From NCBI GenBank assembly GCA_028873535.1, contig JAGWIJ010000017.1, forward strand, positions 1 to 40,127: DNA of 40,127 bases, in the 5' to 3' direction. The stretch is from Pseudomonadota bacterium. GTDB taxonomy: Bacteria; Pseudomonadota; Gammaproteobacteria; Burkholderiales; Ferrovaceae. Shown here one piece after another: positions 9,110 through 30,619 of this stretch. The notes under the pieces were generated by a model. That model was given only the letters and a program-made list of their open reading frames with translations. It made no database searches and had not been told where the DNA came from. Every line of letters begins with the position of its first letter. Position 1 is the stretch's first letter. The position numbers were made by a program, and so were the translations under genes.

Positions 9110-10276
9110 CTAGCGCGCGTAGTCGCCGGGCCCCGCCGGCGCCGCGGGGTCGCCGATCTCCATCAGGCACTGGAAGTAGGCGGCGGCATCCGCCCAGGGC
9201 AGGTGCTGCTGCAGCAGCGTCAACACCAGGTGCCCCGCCGCCACCACCGGCGCCGCCTCGTGAAGCTGGCTCTCGGCAGTATCCGAGCTGTCGCGCGTCT
9301 TGTGCTTGTTGCTGTCCTGGTGGTTGTAGGCATGGAAGGTGATGATCCGGCCGGGCACCGCGCTGACCGCGAATTCGCCGCAGCCACGGCCGGCACTCGC
9401 CGGGTCGCGCTGCACGTGTGCCGCCGACCAGCTGTCCTCGATGGTGTGCAGCAGCGAGCCCAGCGCCATGTCGCGCACCAGCGCGTCGGCGTTCGCGCCA
9501 TGCTGATGCGACTGCGGGACGAACAGCGAGCGGACGCTGAAGCCATTGCGGCCGAACACGTCACGCAGGGCCGGGATCCGTTCGCTGATCGGGGCGTCGA
9601 GATCGGCAATTTCGCCGTCGTTGACGCGGTAGGTCAATTCGAGCCACGCCAGCACGTGCGCGTGCGTGACGGCGGCCGCTTCGCCGTCCCACGAGGCCAT
9701 GGCGTGGAAGAACTGCAGATCGCCGAAATGGACGCGGTAGAGCAGCGCTACCGGCGTCGCGTCGGTGTTGCCGGAGAAGTGCTCGCCGGGTCGCGCGCTG
9801 GCACGCTTCTCGGCGTCATAGAACAGGGTGACCCAGCACAGGGGATCCGAGTCCAGGTCCAGGTAGTAGTCCGGTCTCGCGGCGGCCGGGCAGCGCCTCG
9901 ACTTGCTTGCCAGGCGGAAGATGGGGTTGTCGTTCCAGCGCAGGCCGTCGAGCACGCCTTGCGGAACGGCGTTTTCGGGATTGTCGCCGCAGTCGACGAA
10001 AGCCTCGGTGCAGCCGAACATGCGCGCCGTCAAGGCCTCGTGGGCAGGGTCGCTGAACTGGTCGAGCACGCGCTCGATGATCGGGCGCAGAAAGAATGGC
10101 ACGCCGGTGCTGCCGGGCCCGCCCAGCTGATCCTGGGTCTCTTCGTAGATCGGAGTGAGGTTGTAGGCCGCGGCGCCCGGCGGCGCCAGGAGGGCGGCGG
10201 CTGCCAGCAGCCACGCCAGCAGCGTCGCGACGCCGGCACGGCCGCGGTACCCGGATGATGCGCGCTGACGTGGCAT
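9110..10276 (-). CDS. Exported protein with phospholipase C/P1-nuclease-like helical motifs (tentative)
   Basis: The 388-residue product has a Sec-type signal peptide (Arg-rich start, hydrophobic LLAWLLAAAALLA, cleavage near GAAA-YN) and is expected in the periplasm or outside the cell. I do not recognise it outright. Several stretches look like the metal-binding helices of the zinc-dependent phospholipase C/P1 nuclease fold: HEALTARMF near residue 79, FGDLQFFHAM near residue 185, and LLHTIEDSWSAAHVQRD near residue 275, comparable to the HTxQD pattern of that superfamily. It has several Cys that could form disulfides. It is convergent with regA across nine bases and divergent from the ADP-ribosylglycohydrolase gene. 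The function call is inference from local motifs only. Confidence 0.7.
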   Translation of the reverse strand: MPRQRASSGYRGRAGVATLLAWLLAAAALLAPPGAAAYNLTPIYEETQDQLGGPGSTGVPFFLRPIIERVLDQFSDPAHEALTARMFGCTEAFVDCGDNPENAVPQGVLDGLRWNDNPIFRLASKSRRCPAAARPDYYLDLDSDPLCWVTLFYDAEKRASARPGEHFSGNTDATPVALLYRVHFGDLQFFHAMASWDGEAAAVTHAHVLAWLELTYRVNDGEIADLDAPISERIPALRDVFGRNGFSVRSLFVPQSHQHGANADALVRDMALGSLLHTIEDSWSAAHVQRDPASAGRGCGEFAVSAVPGRIITFHAYNHQDSNKHKTRDSSDTAESQLHEAAPVVAAGHLVLTLLQQHLPWADAAAYFQCLMEIGDPAAPAGPGDYAR

Positions 10277-10555
10277 GGCGACTTCTCCCCGGTGTTCGCT
10301 GGATCGAGCCCCATGTTAGCGCGTCCGCGGTGCGCACCCCAGTCCGCACCCGGTGACTGTCGGCGCGCCGGCCCGCAGGCCAGGTCCGGCAGGGCCTTGC
10401 ATGACATCTTGCTGCGCAGCTGCCGCCATTTGGCGCCTTGCAGGCAGTCTGGCGCCCGCGGATAGTGCATGGGCAAGCACTTACGTCCAGGCCAAGCCCA
10501 TGTCCAGCCGACTGTCATCCGCCGCCGTGCCGCGATCGCCCACCCGGCAGGGGCG

Positions 10556-11455
10556 GTGGTGAGCGGCATCCAGGCATGCCATGCAGATCTGGAACGGGCG
10601 CGCCGCTCGCTGGCCGGGCTTTCGTTGGGAGATGCCTTCGGCGATCGCTTTGACGGTCCCCCCGGACAGGTGCGCGCGCAACTGCAGCGGCGCGAACTGC
10701 CGGGTGGTCCGTGGCGGGTCACCGACGACACGATGATGGCGATGGCGGTGATCGAGGTGCTGTCCGAGCACGGCCGCATCGACCAGGACGCGCTCGCACA
10801 CCGGCTGGGAACGCGCTACCTGCGCGAACCTGCGCGTGGCTATGGTGCCGGCGCGCACCAGATCCTGGCCAGGATCGCGGCGGGCGAGCACTGGTCGCGT
10901 GCCGCCAGGGCCGTCTTCGAAGGTGCCGGCTCGATGGGCAACGGCGGCGCGATGCGTGCCGCGCCGGTTGGCGCCTACTTCGCCGACGATCCTGCACGCG
11001 CGGCGCGCGAGGCGGCGCGCGCTGCCGAGGTCACGCACGCACACCCGGACGGGCAGGCGGGTGCCGTGGCCGTTGCCTTGGCGGCCGCCTGGATTGCCAA
11101 CGGCACGCGCCGGCCCGAACTGCTGTTCGAGCGGGTGCTGGCCATGACGCCAGCCGGCGACACGCGTACGGTGCTGCAGCGCGCGGCGCTGCTTTCGCTG
11201 GCGACGCCGGTCACCGAGGCTGCCGCGCGGCTGGGCAGCGGGCGCCGTGTGCTGTCGTCGGACACGGTGCCGTTCGCGCTGTGGTGCGCGGCACGTCACC
11301 TGGGCGACTACCAGGCTGCCCTGTGGTCCACCGTCGCCGGGCTCGGCGACCGCGACACCACCTGCGCGATCGTCGGCAGCCTGGTGGCGCTGGCCCCCGG
11401 GGTTCTGCTGCCGGCGGACTGGATTGCCGCGCGCGAGCCGATCGACGGCCTCTGA
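10556..11455 (+). CDS. ADP-ribosylglycohydrolase family protein
   Basis: This enzyme is predicted to remove ADP-ribose from a protein, nucleic acid or small molecule using two metal ions. The family motifs appear in order: GLSLGDAFGDRFDG at the N-terminus, TDDTMMA (metal-binding Asp-Asp-Thr), MGNGGAMRAAPVG, VTHAHPDG, and GDRDTTCAIVGS carrying the DxDT metal ligands. The DR in GDRDT replaces the more usual DT but both Asp are kept. I prefer the GTG at 10556 (or 10559) because the 29 codons after the upstream ATG at 10469 begin with codons of atypical third-base composition and the core domain starts only at residue 50 of that longer form. No ADP-ribosyltransferase is nearby. Its stop abuts the mgsA stop. 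Confidence 0.85.
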   Translation: MVSGIQACHADLERARRSLAGLSLGDAFGDRFDGPPGQVRAQLQRRELPGGPWRVTDDTMMAMAVIEVLSEHGRIDQDALAHRLGTRYLREPARGYGAGAHQILARIAAGEHWSRAARAVFEGAGSMGNGGAMRAAPVGAYFADDPARAAREAARAAEVTHAHPDGQAGAVAVALAAAWIANGTRRPELLFERVLAMTPAGDTRTVLQRAALLSLATPVTEAAARLGSGRRVLSSDTVPFALWCAARHLGDYQAALWSTVAGLGDRDTTCAIVGSLVALAPGVLLPADWIAAREPIDGL

Positions 11456-25007: not shown

Positions 25008-25571
25008 ATGCGCATGCCTTGGCGCGGCCGGCCGGCCGCCGGCTTCACGCTGCTCGAACTGGTGGTGGCGATCGTGCTGCTCGGCATCCTGGCCAGCGTC
25101 ACCGTGTTCTCGTTCGACGGCTCGCGTTCGCGCGGCCAGTTGCTGGTGGCGGCCATGCAGGAATACGCCAATGCCCTGACGCGCATGAAGGCGGATACCG
25201 CGTGCTTCCCCGCCCGGCTCAGCGCGCTTGCGCTGCGCGCCGAGGCCGAGACCAGCCTGTGCCAGGTCTCGCTGGTGCAGCAATGGAACGGCCCTTATGT
25301 TCGGGATGCGCGCACCAATGCCAGCGGCCAGGTCCTGCTCGACCAGATCGCGCCCCAGGTGGTGCTCGACCTGCAGACCGCCGTCGGCATCAACGGCGGC
25401 ACAGCCTACCTGGTGCAGGCTTCGCATGTGCCCGCCGATGTGCTGAGCCAGGCCATGAGTGCCTGCAACGGCGCGCCAGCGGGCAGCGAGACCGCCGCTG
25501 CCCGCTGTGGCCGCAACCTGTCTGGCGACGGCGCCGGCAGCCTGACCTTGCGGTTTGCCGAGGTGCAGTAG
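25008..25571 (+). CDS. GspG/pilin-like protein with prepilin N-terminus (cassette gene 1)
   Basis: The 187-residue protein has a class III prepilin leader cut after Gly12 (PAAG-FTLLELVVAIVLLGILAS), with Glu at mature position 5 and a long hydrophobic helix. The globular part has the WNGPYV pattern that resembles the GspG family, and a C-terminal pair of Cys. The start ATG at 25008 follows AGGAGGTCAC, a good ribosome site (an ATG two codons downstream is also in frame). It is the first of six closely packed genes. It could be the major pseudopilin of an accessory type II secretion or type IV pilus-like fibre. Its overall family is not one I can name. Confidence 0.85.
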   Translation: MRMPWRGRPAAGFTLLELVVAIVLLGILASVTVFSFDGSRSRGQLLVAAMQEYANALTRMKADTACFPARLSALALRAEAETSLCQVSLVQQWNGPYVRDARTNASGQVLLDQIAPQVVLDLQTAVGINGGTAYLVQASHVPADVLSQAMSACNGAPAGSETAAARCGRNLSGDGAGSLTLRFAEVQ

Positions 25572-26354
25572 GTGCCGGCGCCTTGCATGCGGCGTGGCCC
25601 ACCGACCCCCGGCGTTGCGCTGGTGGCGGCGCTGGCGCTGCTGGGCGCCTTGAGCCTGCTGCTGCTGGCGCACTGGAACGTGGACACGGCAGTGCGCGCC
25701 GAGCGGCGCGCACTGCTGCGCCAGACGGCCCTGGAGCAGCAGCTGGCCGACCGGCTCCAGGACTGGTATCGCCAGCATCTGGCCGAACTCGACGCACCGG
25801 GCGCAGCCGCTCCGGACCCTGCCACGGTGCTGCAGACGCTGCCGGGGACGGACCGGATCCGGGTGGCGCTGGGTCCGCTCACGTTCGAAGGCGACGTTGC
25901 CGGACGCCTGGTCTACGCTGCAACGGGCAGCGATTCCCGGGTGCTGGTCGATGGTCACGCGCTCGAACGGCTTGCCATCGACCGGGCGCGCCGGCAGCTG
26001 CGGCAGCTGGCCGCGCGCCTGGAAACCTGGTTCGCCGCCAGGATCGCCAGCGACCCGCTGCACCTTGCCGACAGCAACCACTTCCGTCCGGCTGATCCGG
26101 GCTGCTTCGCGGCCAGCGGCGAACTGCCGTGCCTGGCGGAATATGTCGACGTGGCGCAGCTCGAACGCCTCGCCAACGCGCTGGCACTGACGCCGTCCGA
26201 GCTGCACTCGCCATGGGGCAGCTGCTGTCCGCTGGAGGCCAGCAACGGTGCCGATGCCAGCGCCGTCGCGCCCTACACGCTGGCGCTGCGCGTACGCACG
26301 CCCTGGGATCTCACGCTGGTGGCGCGCGCCGTCCAGCCGGCGGGGGGCACATGA
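25572..26354 (+). CDS. GspK/PilX-like minor pseudopilin (cassette gene 2)
   Basis: The GTG start at 25572 follows the previous stop with no gap; an ATG at 25587 is an alternative. Residues 9-36 read GPPTPG then VALVAALALLGALSLLLL, the GspK/PilX pattern in which the usual Glu5 is absent. The 260-residue protein then has a helical segment rich in Arg/Gln and a C-terminal domain with RVLVDGHALERL, RLETWFAAR, and a C-terminal SPWGSCCPLEASNG stretch resembling the DPWG loop of pilins. This C-terminal module is also present in gene 4. Minor pseudopilins lacking Glu5 usually cap fibre tips, so this is a candidate tip component. The ATGA at the stop overlaps the ATPase start. Confidence 0.75.
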   Translation: MPAPCMRRGPPTPGVALVAALALLGALSLLLLAHWNVDTAVRAERRALLRQTALEQQLADRLQDWYRQHLAELDAPGAAAPDPATVLQTLPGTDRIRVALGPLTFEGDVAGRLVYAATGSDSRVLVDGHALERLAIDRARRQLRQLAARLETWFAARIASDPLHLADSNHFRPADPGCFAASGELPCLAEYVDVAQLERLANALALTPSELHSPWGSCCPLEASNGADASAVAPYTLALRVRTPWDLTLVARAVQPAGGT

Positions 26355-27451
26355 TGGCGGACCCGGGGCTGGGCGCTGCCTTGTCCAGGCTGCTGGGCCA
26401 GGGGCCGGCCTTCAGTGACGTGCACCTGCACGAAGGTCAGCCCTTGCGCGTGCGGCGTGGCGGCAGGCTGTGCATCGAGGACGGCGAGCCCGTCAGCCGA
26501 CAGGCGCTGTTCAGCCTGCTTGCCGAGGCCTGCCCCGACGAAAGCTGGGAGGGCCGGCTGGCCGACGGCGGTGGCCAGTGCGACTTCAGCTTCGGCCTTG
26601 GCGGCGCGCGCTTCCGCTGCAACCTGCACCGCTGCGGCGGCGGTGGCGCGCTGGCGATGGTGTTGCGGCGCCTGGATGCCATGGCGGCCGACATCACCGA
26701 CCTCGGCCTGCCCACCTCGGTGCTCGAATTCGTGGAGCGCCGCTCGGGTCTGCTGCTGGTCACCGGCCCGACCGGCGCTGGCAAGTCCACCACGCTGGCT
26801 GCGCTGGTCGAGCACATCAACCGCAGCCGCGACGGCAAGATCGTCACCATCGAGGACCCGATCGAACTGCTGCACCACGCCAGGCGTTGCACCATCGTCC
26901 AGCGCGAGGTCGGCAGCGACGTGGCCTCGTTCGCGCAGGGTCTGCGTGCCGCCTTGCGCCAGGACCCCGACGTGATCCTGATCGGCGAGATCCGCGATCG
27001 CGACACCATGCGCACCGCGCTCGCGGCTGCCGAGGCGGGCCATCTGGTGCTCTCCACCCTGCACACCCTGAGTGCCGCCAAGACTGTCGACAGGATCAGC
27101 GACTTCTTCCCTGGCGAGGAGCAGGGCCTGGTGCGCAGCGTGCTCGCGTCGGTGCTGGTCGGCGTGATCGGCCAGGTGCTGCTGCCGCGCGAGGATGGGC
27201 AAGGGCGCGTGATGGCCTGGGAGCTCATGGATGCCACGCCGGCGATCGCCAGTCTGATCCGCGAGGGGCGCGCCCACCAGATTCCCAACGCCATGGCCAC
27301 CGGTGGCAGCAGCAACCTGCAACTGCTCAATCGCACGCTGCTCCAGTTGGTGCGCGCACGCGTCGTGGGCCGCCGCGCCGCGCGTCACGCCAGTTACGAT
27401 CCGCGCGACTTCGATCGCGAATCCGCCCTGCTGGCTGGCGGTCATGGCTAG
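26351..27451 (+). CDS. PilT-like secretion/retraction ATPase (cassette gene 3)
   Basis: The 366-residue cytoplasmic hexameric ATPase starts at ATG 26351 overlapping the previous stop. An N-terminal domain begins with FSDVHLHEGQPLRVRRGG, like the PilT N-domain. The Walker A GPTGAGKSTT is at residues 139-148; VTIEDPIELLHH is the Asp box; QDPDVILIGEIRDRDTM is the Walker B; GHLVLSTLHTLSAAKTVDRI is the PilT-type His box; and AIASLIREGRAHQI resembles the PilT AIRNLIRE retraction signature. It therefore looks like a PilT-type ATPase rather than an assembly (PilB/GspE) ATPase, which is odd because no assembly ATPase is present in the cassette. Confidence 0.9.
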   Translation: MMADPGLGAALSRLLGQGPAFSDVHLHEGQPLRVRRGGRLCIEDGEPVSRQALFSLLAEACPDESWEGRLADGGGQCDFSFGLGGARFRCNLHRCGGGGALAMVLRRLDAMAADITDLGLPTSVLEFVERRSGLLLVTGPTGAGKSTTLAALVEHINRSRDGKIVTIEDPIELLHHARRCTIVQREVGSDVASFAQGLRAALRQDPDVILIGEIRDRDTMRTALAAAEAGHLVLSTLHTLSAAKTVDRISDFFPGEEQGLVRSVLASVLVGVIGQVLLPREDGQGRVMAWELMDATPAIASLIREGRAHQIPNAMATGGSSNLQLLNRTLLQLVRARVVGRRAARHASYDPRDFDRESALLAGGHG

Positions 27452-28400
27452 CTGCGCGAATGCCGGCGGCTTCACGCTGATCGAGCTGGTGGTCACGCTC
27501 ACCCTGCTGATGCTGTTGTCGGCGATCGTCGCTACCGGCTTCTCGCCGTGGCTGGCATTCCAGCAGGCACTGGAAACCGACCAGCGGCTTGCGGCCCAGC
27601 AGCAGCTTTGGATGGCCTGGCTGGAACGTCATGCCGGCGAGGTCGAACAGGCGGGTGCCGATCCCGGACTGGCGCTGGGCGAGCGCTGGCTGGCGGACGG
27701 CACTCTGCTCGACGCCGCGAGCTGGCAGCTGCCGTTGTCCGCGGCGCTGGGTGCAGCGGGACCGGCGCTGGTCGAGGATGGCTTCCACCAGCCCTGGCGC
27801 ATGCATGTCTCGCGCAGCCTGCTTCGCGACGAACGCGGCATTGCCCTGCACTACCACGTGCTGGCCCTGGTTTCGCCCGGGGCCAACGGGCGGATCGAGC
27901 CGGCGACGCGTTTCGATGCGGCCACGGGCCTGCTGCTGCTGGCCGGCGATGACCGCGGCGTGCTGATCGACGGCTGGCCGCTCGCGCGACAACAGCTCGA
28001 ACGCCTCGATGCGCGCCTCGAGCGGGCTGGCAATGCCTGGCAGGACTGGTTTCGCGCACGTTGGGAAGGGGACGCCGAGCGCGACCCCTCGATCGACTAT
28101 TTTGCCGGGCCCTGTCCCGGTGACCCGCTCGCCAGTGCCTGGGACGGTGGTCCCGACGCGCTGCCGCCCAGCTGCGACGCCGCAAGCGATCCCGCCGCGC
28201 CCGGTCTGCGCCTGGGTCTGTCGATCGGCGAACTGCGCGACCCGACCGGCGCTCCGCTGCATTTCGATGCCAATTCCGCGGCGACGCGCAATCCGGATCA
28301 GGCAGATCCCGGCCTGCGCATTCCGCCTTACAGCGCCATGGTCAGCGGCGGCCTGCCGGGCGGCACGCGCGTCCAGCGATCGGTGCTGGGCACCCTCTAG
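27444..28400 (+). CDS. Minor pilin-like protein with prepilin N-terminus (cassette gene 4)
   Basis: The ATG at 27444 overlaps the ATPase gene by eight bases and gives 318 residues; the open frame before it is a shadow. The leader is cut after Gly9 (NAGG-FTLIELVVTLTLLMLLSA), with Glu5 present. The C-terminal half repeats the layout of gene 2: RGVLIDGWPLARQQLERL, WQDWFRARW, a Cys-containing loop, and GELRDPTGAPLHFDANS in place of SELHSPWGSCC. The protein is larger than an ordinary major pilin, so it is probably a minor component. About 26 bases separate it from the next gene. Confidence 0.8.
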   Translation: MASCANAGGFTLIELVVTLTLLMLLSAIVATGFSPWLAFQQALETDQRLAAQQQLWMAWLERHAGEVEQAGADPGLALGERWLADGTLLDAASWQLPLSAALGAAGPALVEDGFHQPWRMHVSRSLLRDERGIALHYHVLALVSPGANGRIEPATRFDAATGLLLLAGDDRGVLIDGWPLARQQLERLDARLERAGNAWQDWFRARWEGDAERDPSIDYFAGPCPGDPLASAWDGGPDALPPSCDAASDPAAPGLRLGLSIGELRDPTGAPLHFDANSAATRNPDQADPGLRIPPYSAMVSGGLPGGTRVQRSVLGTL

Positions 28401-28426
28401 AAACGTATCCGCTCAGGAGACCTGCC

Positions 28427-29326
28427 ATGAACCGATGCCCTGCAGCTCCATTCCTGCGCCTGTGTCTTCTGGTCTGGCTGGCAGCGCTGGCTGTGCCGCA
28501 GTCCGGCGCAAAGGCGCAATCCGGACCCGAGCGTGCGGTCAATCCGCTCACCGGCGCTCCGCTCAGCCTGGAACAGATGCATTGGTCGCTGGAACAGGCG
28601 CACCTCGAAGAGCAACTGCAGGCGAGCCTGCTCAACCGACGCAAATTCGAACTGGAGCGCCAGCGCCTTGACCTGGGCGGCGGCGCGCCGCCTTCGCCCG
28701 CCGGCAGTGTTGCGGTGCCCGGCGATGGCAGCTGGCCGGGCAGCGGTCTGCTGGGCGGTCGTGTGCAGTCGGCCGCCGCAGCGGCAGCCGTCGCGCCATT
28801 GCCGCTGCCGCCGGTCGTCGGCATTGCGCGCGCTGCGCCTGCCGTGGTGGCCGAACCAGCACACGGGCGGACCAGGCTGCGCAAGGTGTCGACACGACAG
28901 CCCGACGAGGACCCGGCCTTGCAAGTGGTGGGCGCGCGCGCGCGCGGCGCGGCCTGGTGCCTGCTGGTGAGCGAGGCGCAGCAACTGCTGCCGGTGTGCG
29001 CCGGCGAGTGGCGGCGCGGACATCATGTCCAGGCGGTGTCCGCCCAGGCCTACACGGTCGACGGCGTGAGCCGGCAGATCGACCTCCCGGCCGGTCAGCT
29101 GCACGCCGGGCCGTCCGGTGGCACAACGGCCGCTGCCATCGTCACGCCAGCGGGCCTGCCAGAGCCCGACGGCGGTTTCGCTGCCAGCGGTCCCGGTGGC
29201 CCCGGCGATCCCGCGGTTCCTGGCAGTCCTGGCAGCCCTGGTGGTGCCGGCAGTGACGGCGGCGTCGGCGGTGGTGTGGCAGCGGCACTGCGGCTGGCGG
29301 CACCGGTCGCGCTGCCACAGCGCTGA
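28427..29326 (+). CDS. Exported PilP-like protein with Gly/Pro-rich tail (cassette gene 5)
   Basis: The 299-residue product has a signal peptide (cleaved near GAKA-QS), then NPLTGAPLSLEQMHWSLEQ and a helical, coiled-coil-like stretch with EEQLQASLLNRRKFELERQ. A region around residues 165-205 (LQVVGARARGAAWCLLVSEA, VCAGEWRRGHHVQAVSAQAY) resembles the small beta domain of PilP/TcpS-type type IVb pilus proteins. The C-terminal ~50 residues are rich in Gly and Pro with partial collagen-like spacing (GPGGPGDPAVPGSPGSPGG). A weak RBS-like CAGGAGA precedes the ATG. The PilP link is a structural guess; location in the periplasm is well supported. Confidence 0.65.
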   Translation: MNRCPAAPFLRLCLLVWLAALAVPQSGAKAQSGPERAVNPLTGAPLSLEQMHWSLEQAHLEEQLQASLLNRRKFELERQRLDLGGGAPPSPAGSVAVPGDGSWPGSGLLGGRVQSAAAAAAVAPLPLPPVVGIARAAPAVVAEPAHGRTRLRKVSTRQPDEDPALQVVGARARGAAWCLLVSEAQQLLPVCAGEWRRGHHVQAVSAQAYTVDGVSRQIDLPAGQLHAGPSGGTTAAAIVTPAGLPEPDGGFAASGPGGPGDPAVPGSPGSPGGAGSDGGVGGGVAAALRLAAPVALPQR

Positions 29327-30619
29327 ATGTCGGTCCGCGGCCTGGTATTGTCGCTGACTGTGTGCGCGTGCCTGGACGCAGGGGCGGCGCGGCTGGGCGG
29401 CGGTGCGCCATCCCTGCTGATGGTGGATCAGCTGGTCAGCACGGATGCCAATGGGTACGTGCTGCAGTCTTGGCTGCAACTGGCGCTGCGCAGCGTGGCG
29501 TCGACGGCGTCTGGCCTGATGGTGCTGCCCGACGCAGCCGGCGCTGCGCCAGATCCGGGCGCTGCGGCGGCCGGCCTTGACGGCGTGCAGCCCCTGCTGT
29601 GGCGCGACCCGCCGCTGCAACGGGCGCCGCAAGCCGGGGCCGCCCTTGCGCTGTCGTCTGCCGCTTACGCTGCCGCCGCCAATGACACGCCAGCCGCGCG
29701 CGTGACGCAATTGTCGACGCTGGCGACCCGGCAGCTGCAGTCTGCCGCGCCCGCCATGGCCGCCCGGCTGGCGGCAGTGGCGCGCAGCCGTGGTGCTGCC
29801 GAGGCCTGGTTCAACTTCCGTCAGCAGCTGCCGGTGGCCGGCGCGCCGCGCAGCGTGGTCTGGACACTGCACGCAACAGCTGCCGGCACCTGGTTCGCCG
29901 GCACCCCGGTCGTCGACGCACCGGGTGCGGCGCTGCTGCATGCACGCTATGTGCCGCTCACCGTGGCTGCCGGCTTGCCAGCGGGCTATGGCTACCAGGA
30001 TGGGGGCTGGCTGCGTTGGGACCTGAGCGACGCCCTCGGTCATGCGCTGCCCGGCGCCGGCGCGCGCGACACGCACGGCGCCTTCGACGGCGCACAGGGT
30101 CTGGCCTGTCTCACAGGAAGTGCCAGCACGCCGTGCGATCCAGCGCAGGAGGGGATTCCTGGCCTGATGGAGCGACTGGGGGTGGCACAGGCCGAGCTCA
30201 CGGTGGCCGCCAGCCTGCGTCCCGTGTTCGTGGTGACCGCGGCCGGCCAGCGCTATGCCGTGGCGCGGCTGGTGGTGCAGCGCGCACTGTCCGGCGCGGA
30301 TCCCGCCTGCCTGACACCGCCGTGGCAGTTCCGCAATGACTACCAGGCCGCATTCCAGCTCGACGCGCGTCTGGACCGCTACCGGCGCGCGGCCGACGGC
30401 CACTGGTCGCTGCTGGAACGCCGTTCCCTGCGACAGGCCGGCCCACTGCTGCCGTGGAAGAGCGTGCGCATGACATTGCCGGCGGCGCCGCTGCCCGCGC
30501 TGGACGCACTGGCGATCGACCCCGAGCAGGGTGGCCTGGTGCGTCTGGATGCGTTTCCGGCCGGCCTGCAGAGGGTGACGGCAGGAGCGGTGGTGTGCGA
30601 GGCCACGGCCACACCTTGA
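29327..30619 (+). CDS. Exported protein of unknown function (cassette gene 6)
   Basis: The 430-residue product starts at an ATG that follows the previous TGA directly. A signal peptide (LVLSLTVCACLDAGA) predicts export. I do not recognise any domain. The sequence is Ala/Leu-rich, with Trp-containing stretches (AGTWFAG, LRWDLSDA, FNFRQQLPV) and two Cys-bearing loops (ACLTGSASTPCDP, DPACLTPPW) that could form disulfides. Its place at the end of the pilin cassette suggests a surface or periplasmic partner of the fibre, for example a tip or substrate protein. The next gene is 71 bases away and appears unrelated. Confidence 0.65.
   Translation: MSVRGLVLSLTVCACLDAGAARLGGGAPSLLMVDQLVSTDANGYVLQSWLQLALRSVASTASGLMVLPDAAGAAPDPGAAAAGLDGVQPLLWRDPPLQRAPQAGAALALSSAAYAAAANDTPAARVTQLSTLATRQLQSAAPAMAARLAAVARSRGAAEAWFNFRQQLPVAGAPRSVVWTLHATAAGTWFAGTPVVDAPGAALLHARYVPLTVAAGLPAGYGYQDGGWLRWDLSDALGHALPGAGARDTHGAFDGAQGLACLTGSASTPCDPAQEGIPGLMERLGVAQAELTVAASLRPVFVVTAAGQRYAVARLVVQRALSGADPACLTPPWQFRNDYQAAFQLDARLDRYRRAADGHWSLLERRSLRQAGPLLPWKSVRMTLPAAPLPALDALAIDPEQGGLVRLDAFPAGLQRVTAGAVVCEATATP

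Follow-up and report, generated by a model that had tools for sequence, protein, structure and literature searches.

A six-gene pilin cassette in a Ferrovaceae genome as the probable downstream part of a dispersed type IV pilus operon

The six genes between positions 25,008 and 30,619 of the window, by which we mean the whole stretch of 40,127 nucleotides analysed here, are not free-standing. Together they make up one half of an operon for a type IV pilus; the second half is found, along with genes of a conjugation-type type IV secretion system (T4SS), elsewhere in the same genome. Their identity as the pilin, tip-pilin, retraction-motor and exported-protein set of an uncharacterised type IVb-like pilus with a VirB-type link is well supported. 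We consider it probable that the cassette is the downstream half of such a pilus, the upstream half of which usually follows virB8-9-10, that the system has become dispersed in the window lineage, and that mating is its likeliest use.

All six open reading frames were confirmed on the plus strand (Table 1). The initial annotation had described same-strand genes separated by 0 to 26 bases or by short overlaps, which agrees with the coordinates (gaps of 0, -4, -8, +26 and 0 bases), and it had rightly noted that no platform, assembly ATPase or secretin is encoded between them. A scan for promoters and terminators gave nothing useful.

Table 1. Positions and assignments of the six cassette genes in the window
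Gene	Position	Strand	Assignment
g1	25008..25571	+	prepilin; N_methyl 29.6 bits (cut-off 21.2), 4.5e-7; GFTLLE motif
g2	25572..26354 (GTG start)	+	pilin-like without Glu5, GspK-like in that respect
g3	26351..27451	+	PilT/PilU-family ATPase; TIGR01420 pilT_fam 363.2 bits (cut-off 319.1), PF00437 159.1 bits
g4	27444..28400	+	large prepilin, GFTLIE; N_methyl 25.0 bits, 1.3e-5
g5	28427..29326	+	exported protein; conserved NPxTGxP segment (five-row alignment)
g6	29327..30619	+	exported protein; no family above cut-off

The g1 product had been called a GspG-like pilin, of which the pilin part stands: the prepilin pattern occurs in 21 of 22 aligned rows, the remaining one reading GLTLVE, whereas the scores against the GspG (40.3 bits, 2.9e-10), GspH (32.7 bits) and GspJ (15.7 bits) models all stayed under the respective cut-offs of 88.85, 80 and 64.85. 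In relatives g1 immediately follows the platform gene; by this position it is probably the major pilin, and the cassette would accordingly hold more than the minor pilins initially proposed. The second prepilin, g4, was borne out by a GFxxxE-type motif in 24/24 rows, and it too scored under the cut-offs of the GspH and GspG models. For g2, annotated as GspK/PilX-like and lacking Glu5, the latter is true of all 23 rows, while no Pfam or NCBIfam family was found above cut-off. This protein is homologous to g4 across 264 columns (hhalign probability 99.8), the C-terminal region being common to both, and is a candidate tip pilin. Profile searches of the PDB gave three matches for g2, all at E > 0.3, and pilins over the N-terminus for g4. 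AlphaFold models from three-row alignments (pLDDT 64.9 for g4 and 50.6 for g6) were too poor to judge tip roles, and Foldseek searches with both returned nothing at E <= 0.001.

The assignment of g3 to the PilT-type ATPases was upheld by its family score and by its motifs, i.e. Walker A GPTGAGKS, EDPIE, Walker B VILIGEIRD, the His box GHLVLSTLHT and AIASLIR. It is probably a retraction motor, the direction of which we infer. Although PilT and PilU of type IVa pili (T4aP) belong to the same family, the g3 rows lie outside the PilT/PilU clade and are parted by a branch with 100/99 support from 34 T4aP-type rows, in a tree which used every fifth T4aP-type row and left out the VirB11-like L039 reading frame, the fragment L083 and rows covering under half of the profile. 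The gene is absent from 3 of the 21 order loci, and the G039 copy appears to have degenerated.

Both remaining proteins are exported, as had been annotated. The likeness of g5 to PilP is weak: 3 of 10 homologues match TIGR03021 (E 0.12, 0.0078 and 0.00097), all under cut-off, and the window protein matches no family above cut-off. The absence of a recognised domain from g6 was corroborated, with no family above cut-off, no Pfam match in 13 members and no sequence relative in a profile search of the PDB. Homologues of g6 occur in 9 of the 21 order loci and on 2 of 3 plasmids, and the protein is a candidate tip or surface protein.

For the identification of relatives, 399 genomes of the order were scanned with a g4 profile, and the 22 genomes (own included) with a full-length or nearly full-length match at E < 1e-50 were counted; one of them, G242, was left out of the gene-order reading. 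At E <= 0.001 the profile matches 327 of the 399 genomes, mostly by the pilin N-terminus among the matches listed. In a scan of the genomes' contigs with g3, two of the best 80 of 409 loci (L096 and L097) hold the cassette, and in the other 78 our profiles matched PilT-family genes only, plus T2SS-like genes in three. L096 and L097 are the same contigs as those of G002 and G001.

In all 21 loci of the order outside the genus, from 19 genomes, the platform gene pilR stands directly 5' of g1, the cassette usually lying within a pilL-N-O-P-Q-R arrangement. The word accessory, used by the initial annotation, is therefore not supported, and the isolation of the six genes in the window is best read as a rearrangement of its own lineage, since elsewhere they form the downstream half of the operon. 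Upstream of the cassette, virB10 was found in 14 of the 17 order loci with upstream sequence at hand, and not in G047, G203 and G292. In three genomes of other orders, virB8-9-10, the pil genes and the cassette form a single array, and in two of these (G725 and G649) virB11 and virB4 lie in the fetched stretch as well. Chance does not explain the order of the cassette genes, which is repeated in further families of the order, in the three genomes of other orders and on plasmids.

Seven plasmid records were matched by g4 and ten by the secretin, three being examined for gene order; a search with the assembly ATPase retrieved mostly GspE genes among the matches listed. In Limnohabitans pTEGF4 the pil array lies beside VirB4 to VirB11, a coupling protein and TcpQ, in Robbsia p3 beside VirB8-10, and in Variovorax SRS16 plasmid 2 beside TraC/F/H/G. 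Most genes of the plasmid copies are annotated as 'hypothetical' or 'type II secretion'.

This array is split up in the window genome: contig 193 carries the cassette, contig 176 carries virB8-virB9-virB10-pilL-N-O-P-Q-R including secretin, assembly ATPase and platform, and contig 22 carries VirB2/4/11 and coupling-protein-like genes. The assembly ATPase of contig 176 falls into one clade (100/98) with the ATPases adjoining the cassette in relatives, to the exclusion of the genome's own PilB- and GspE-type paralogues. The initial proposal of a module that plugs into a machine elsewhere fits these data, and that of a reduced fibre system is rejected, since the matching machine is present. The genome has one prepilin peptidase. 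Pfam matches above cut-off were obtained for VirB2 (TrbC), VirB4, VirB9 (CagX), VirB10 (TrbI), a VirB11-like protein (T2SSE) and TrwB; VirB8 was found only with a locally built profile (6e-48), the VirB6 match is weak, and VirB4, VirB8/TrbF, VirB9 and VirB10 score under the NCBIfam equivalog cut-offs. Among the 23 cassette genomes, TrbI/VirB10 occurs in 22, the VirB4 family in 16 (seven have no PF03135 match) and the TrwB coupling-protein family in 20, 19 above cut-off and many weak.

The protein in the PilL position combines, in the window genome, a CagX match (48.4 bits, cut-off 34.2) with a TcpQ match (29.3 bits, cut-off 27). Both were seen in two of the three chromosomal proteins considered, TcpQ of L045 reaching 21.0 and thus lying under its cut-off, and neither in L187; the Limnohabitans protein matches TcpQ alone (28.4 bits). 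The PilO family PF06864 gave no Pfam match in the proteins of L045, L032 (the window genome's own locus) and L199.

After removal of the near-duplicate loci G263, G090, G407 and G109, the distances of g4 correlate with those of pilQ, pilR and pilN (r 0.50, 0.53 and 0.56; 0/2000 permutations each). Outside the genus, the window genome is closest to G078 by its g1, g4, pilQ, pilR and pilN, and to G133 by its g2, virB9 and virB10. The genome G002, 99% complete, holds the cassette and virB8-9-10 (L220), and its best pilN and pilQ matches show 32% and 35% identity only; both a gap and a loss would account for this, as its virB10 points off the contig end.

Of the known systems, the R64/IncI thin pilus is similar in the core order L-N-O-P-Q-R-S, to which R64 adds pilM between L and N, and in the linkage of pilus to transfer genes. 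In the window genome, by contrast, the gene in the S position and its followers are on a separate contig. A further trait of the R64 type, a TcpQ domain in the PilL position, is present in the window genome's own protein and in that of Limnohabitans. The R64 ATPase, secretin and platform were detected by hhalign (99.9, 96.8 and 75.4), and PilL, PilO, PilP, PilS, PilV and PilM were unmatched in these comparisons with single R64 sequences; g1, g2, g4 and g6 gave probabilities < 2 against PilS and PilV in a run that missed even the prepilin helix. The R64 PilN equivalog TIGR02520 scored 96.5 and 92.1 bits, under its cut-off of 287.65. The places of the R64 transglycosylase, prepilin peptidase and shufflon PilV are taken here by g2, the PilT-type ATPase and g4-g6. 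The best NCBIfam model for the secretin is MshL of the MSHA pilus (160.6 and 146 bits), also under cut-off (250.2), and a TcpQ/CagX PilL and VirB neighbours are not known as features of MSHA. With these scores, membership in the MSHA and R64 types was rejected. As to whether the cassette belongs to a complete, named pilus locus, a point raised by the initial annotation, the locus is complete in relatives, while the scores lie under the cut-offs of every named subtype tested.

In Pseudomonas, the type IVb pilus of PAPI-1 is required for transfer of the island, which encodes VirB4 and VirD4 homologues (PMC12857230, PMC5297154). As far as those accounts go, only two clear T4SS homologues are described there and the cluster ends in pilS2-T2-V2-M2, whereas relatives of VirB2, B4, B6, B8, B9, B10 and B11 occur here, with VirB3 under its cut-off only. 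For the Tfp7 pilus of Burkholderia an operon of the R64 type is described, in which a separate gene, pilT2, encodes an ATPase (PMC3984277).

Among the alternatives, it is possible, though clearly less probable than the reading favoured here, that this pilus serves adhesion or motility and has no part in the transfer of DNA or protein, the nearby T4SS genes being relics or unrelated. Five genomes of one family (G090, G263, G292, G320 and G347) hold VirB10 and the cassette without a VirB4 match, the loci of G090, G133 and G263 lie among genes read as metabolic, and all three plasmids were typed as non-mobilizable by MOB-suite, against a conjugative role. In addition, g4 distances correlate weakly with those of virB10 (r 0.25, 146/2000 permutations) and virB9 (r 0.29, 50/2000). 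However, the distances of pilN show a strong correlation with those of virB9 (r 0.80, 0/2000), the window genome has kept its VirB2-, VirB4-, VirB11- and coupling-protein-like genes, and arrays with T4SS ATPases exist on plasmids as well as in several families and two genomes of other orders.

That the type IVa pilus of the cell, or one of its type II secretion systems, has taken over the cassette, with minor pseudopilins swapped into another machine, appears improbable. The genome does hold PilT/PilU-, PilC- and PilB-type genes and further secretin, ATPase and platform sets on contigs 108, 102 and 32, and the cassette is chromosomal; its flanking genes, which we read as edd at one end and a quinone oxidoreductase with ggt at the opposite end, also occur in G002 at 70-81% identity. 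The scores of g1 and g4 under the Gsp cut-offs, the separation of g3 from the T4aP-type rows, the clade of the assembly ATPase and the position of the cassette, which in all 21 loci outside the genus comes after a platform gene of this system's family, disfavour such a minor-pilin set. A competence pilus, for which tip pilins and an ATPase for retraction would be suitable parts, is slightly more improbable still, as no competence gene was recognised within the loci examined and the recurrent neighbours are T4SS genes.

Returning to the retractile pilus that perhaps serves mating, the upstream half would supply the PilL-position protein, the secretin, the PilO- and PilP-position proteins, the assembly ATPase and the platform, and the downstream half the major pilin, a tip pilin lacking Glu5, the PilT-type retraction ATPase, a second large tip pilin and two exported proteins, the array having been scattered to at least three places in the window lineage. 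The machine of contig 176 would build a g1 fibre, with g2 and g4 as the priming pair, and display its tip, of which g6 may be a part, and g3 would retract it. Conjugation-aiding type IVb pili are known from R64, TP114 and PAPI-1, and by analogy the likeliest use would be to catch another cell and draw it to a partner VirB-type secretion apparatus. A closer union, in which the CagX- and TcpQ-containing PilL docks the pilus secretin onto the VirB8-9-10 core, so that pilus and T4SS are one apparatus and g3 reels in the partner, seems to us rather unlikely. The idea of a type IVb pilus in place of the VirB2 pilus was set aside, since G087 and the window genome both contain a gene for a TrbC/VirB2-like pilin.

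The system is distinguished by the combination of a VirB-type T4SS with a PilT-type motor of its own, in several families and on plasmids. If the link is true, retraction of such a pilus by a dedicated motor would become testable, as would the role of a VirB9-like/TcpQ protein in coupling a type IV pilus and a T4SS. The case is also a warning for fragmentary genomes, in which a lone pilin cassette can belong to a machine whose second half is encoded in another place.

The six plus-strand open reading frames of the cassette (g1-g6) lie where the initial annotation had placed them, on contig 193 (the entire window) of a 3.43 Mb Ferrovaceae genome of 193 contigs which is 92.9% complete. Family scans assigned g3 to the PilT/PilU family above cut-off, in agreement with its description as a PilT-type ATPase, and found the prepilin signals of g1 and g4 to be present; the motor motifs are present in the g3 protein of the window. 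No family was found above cut-off for g2, g5 or g6; the proposed similarity of g5 to PilP is faint and shows in 3 of 10 homologues. The proteins g2 and g4 are homologous across 264 columns (hhalign 99.8); the GFxxxE motif is found in all 24 g4 rows, and the reported lack of Glu5 in g2 holds for 23 of 23 rows. As lack of Glu5 is characteristic of GspK, the pilin that caps the type II pseudopilus, g2 and g4 would form the pilus tip. From its position and apparent export signal, g6 is a candidate tip or surface protein.

The cassette had been regarded as an accessory module serving a pilus or secretion machine encoded elsewhere, or as a reduced fibre system. The module is real, but it is half of an operon, the upstream half being pilL-N-O-P-Q-R (named after the order in plasmid R64), with pilN as secretin, pilQ as assembly ATPase and pilR as platform gene. 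In profile searches, full-length or nearly full-length g4 relatives (E < 1e-50) were found in 22 of the 399 genomes representing the order, and relatives with E <= 1e-25 in three genomes plus our own among 370 drawn from the class; the nearest named cassette-bearing relatives are two metagenome genomes of 'uncultured Ferrovum sp.'. Gene order was compared in 21 loci, drawn from 19 genomes that belong to the order but not to the genus; the two pieces of the G320 locus count once, and G242 is left out. The platform gene is located immediately 5' of g1 in all 21 loci, and all of them contain g2 and g4; g3 is present in 18 (missing from L079, L094 and L095), and 9 gave a g6 match, some of the others running into a contig end. 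Of the 17 loci having upstream sequence, 14 have VirB10 upstream, about 9 kb off in genome G255; the stretches retrieved for G047, G203 and G292 show none. In G292 a VirB10 is located further along the same contig, and we read the array of this genome as broken or interrupted (see table); that of G078 is in one piece. Within the genus, no platform is found at the cassette in G000 and G002, and G001 is cut by a contig end. In two genomes, G087 (L087, L076) and G117 (L092, L093), the pilus array is present twice, in divergent copies, and three loci of family f35 (L088, L090, L091) carry two successive g1-type pilin genes.

Distance correlations (2000 permutations each) were 0.50, 0.53 and 0.56 for g4 with pilQ, pilR and pilN, 0.49 for g2-pilQ, 0.43 for g1-pilQ and 0.80 for pilN-virB9, none of the permutations reaching the observed value in these six cases. 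The values were 0.43 for g4-g2 (reached by 1/2000), 0.43 for pilQ-virB10 (27/2000), 0.29 for g4-virB9 (50/2000) and 0.25 for g4-virB10 (146/2000). The closest relative of our genome outside the genus is G078 by g1, g4, pilQ, pilR and pilN, and G133 by g2, virB9 and virB10.

The assembly ATPases of the system, including that of our contig 176, form a single clade of 22 rows (support 100/98) which leaves the GspE- and PilB-type paralogues of the same genome outside; R64 PilQ sits on a very long branch in this tree, and its placement is unsure. A branch with support 100/99 divides the 23 g3 rows from 34 PilT/PilU rows of type IVa pilus type, the deep order of the g3 tree being unsettled and subject to long-branch warnings. 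An orphan ATPase on our contig 166 nests, on a long branch, among the cassette g3 rows and not with PilT/PilU. The cassette ATPase of G039 looks, from its sequence, as if this motor were decaying.

Our genome contains 10 matches to the T2SSE family, 5 secretins, and 10 T2SSF-domain matches, which we take to represent 5 platform proteins. On contig 176, virB8-virB9-virB10 and then genes for a CagX/TcpQ protein, a secretin, two proteins in the PilO and PilP positions, an assembly ATPase and a platform lie on a single strand. Distances from the cassette to the ends of contig 193 are 25 kb and 9.5 kb, and the contig 176 array ends about 17 kb from one contig end and starts about 15.6 kb from the other; because other genes flank both on both sides, a contig break alone does not explain the split. 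VirB2-, VirB4-, VirB11- and coupling-protein-like genes are found on contig 22, together with a weak VirB6 candidate (E 5.7e-4); the VirB4/VirB11 clusters of G001 and G002 are also off the cassette's contig. Three more secretin/ATPase/platform sets lie on contigs 32 (L033), 102 (L034) and 108 (L035), which we read as resembling the MSHA order, as GspG-F-E with PilN/O-like genes and as a classical gsp operon, respectively.

On plasmids of Limnohabitans, Robbsia and Variovorax, all three typed non-mobilizable, the pil array adjoins conjugation-type genes and is mostly annotated as 'hypothetical' or 'type II secretion'. In G725, a genome of another order, virB11-virB4-virB8-virB9-virB10-pilL-N-O-P-Q-R-g1-g2-g3-g4-g6 are placed on one contig in one direction; open reading frames matching none of the profiles used separate virB11, virB4 and virB8 from one another, and g4 and g6 are set apart by a gap. 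A large open reading frame 3' of g6 on two plasmids and in G255, 'hypothetical' in the plasmid annotation, is possibly a seventh cassette gene.

Coordinates of the cassette and of individual features in related loci
Feature	Source	Coordinates	Observation
Cassette g1-g6	contig 193	25008-30619 (+)
Pilus array	G292	L081:11899-19901	assembly ATPase matches by C-terminal part only; pilN/O/P absent from fetched stretch
Orphan PilT-like ATPase	own contig 166	L040:233-1687	TIGR01420 (PilT/PilU model) 287.8 bits, under cut-off; nearby gene read as DegQ-like
Cassette ATPase	G039	L045:8686-9651	Walker B glutamate missing; C-terminus truncated
Two PilT-type ATPase genes	G649	L213:7220-8350, 9407-11053	flank g4 in one cassette
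ORF upstream of array	G725	L211:1750-2184	repeated SSHPRIHGG-like peptides; looks like translated CRISPR array
Large ORF 3' of g6	plasmid	L199:19512-21161
Large ORF 3' of g6	plasmid	L200:26280-27932
Large ORF 3' of g6	G255	L089:15764-17413

Earlier studies describe R64-type operons with a pilT2 gene for Burkholderia Tfp7 (PMC3984277), the PAPI-1 pilus (PMC12857230, PMC5297154) and its VirB4/VirD4 (PMC12857230), the mating pilus and PilV adhesin of TP114 (PMC9045228), and T4bP as a class within the type IV filament superfamily, in which PilT is often lost, e.g. in T2SS and ComM (PMC6668835). The accessible part of PMC6370655 contains nothing on the pilus/secretion combination seen here, and no description of it was found by title or abstract opening among the matches listed, in a coverage that leaves out most subscription journals. 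The kind of system is ordinary, a type IV pilus paired with a conjugation-type system; its combination and the dispersal of its genes are unusual. The cassette would serve a pilus function, probably together with that conjugation-type system.
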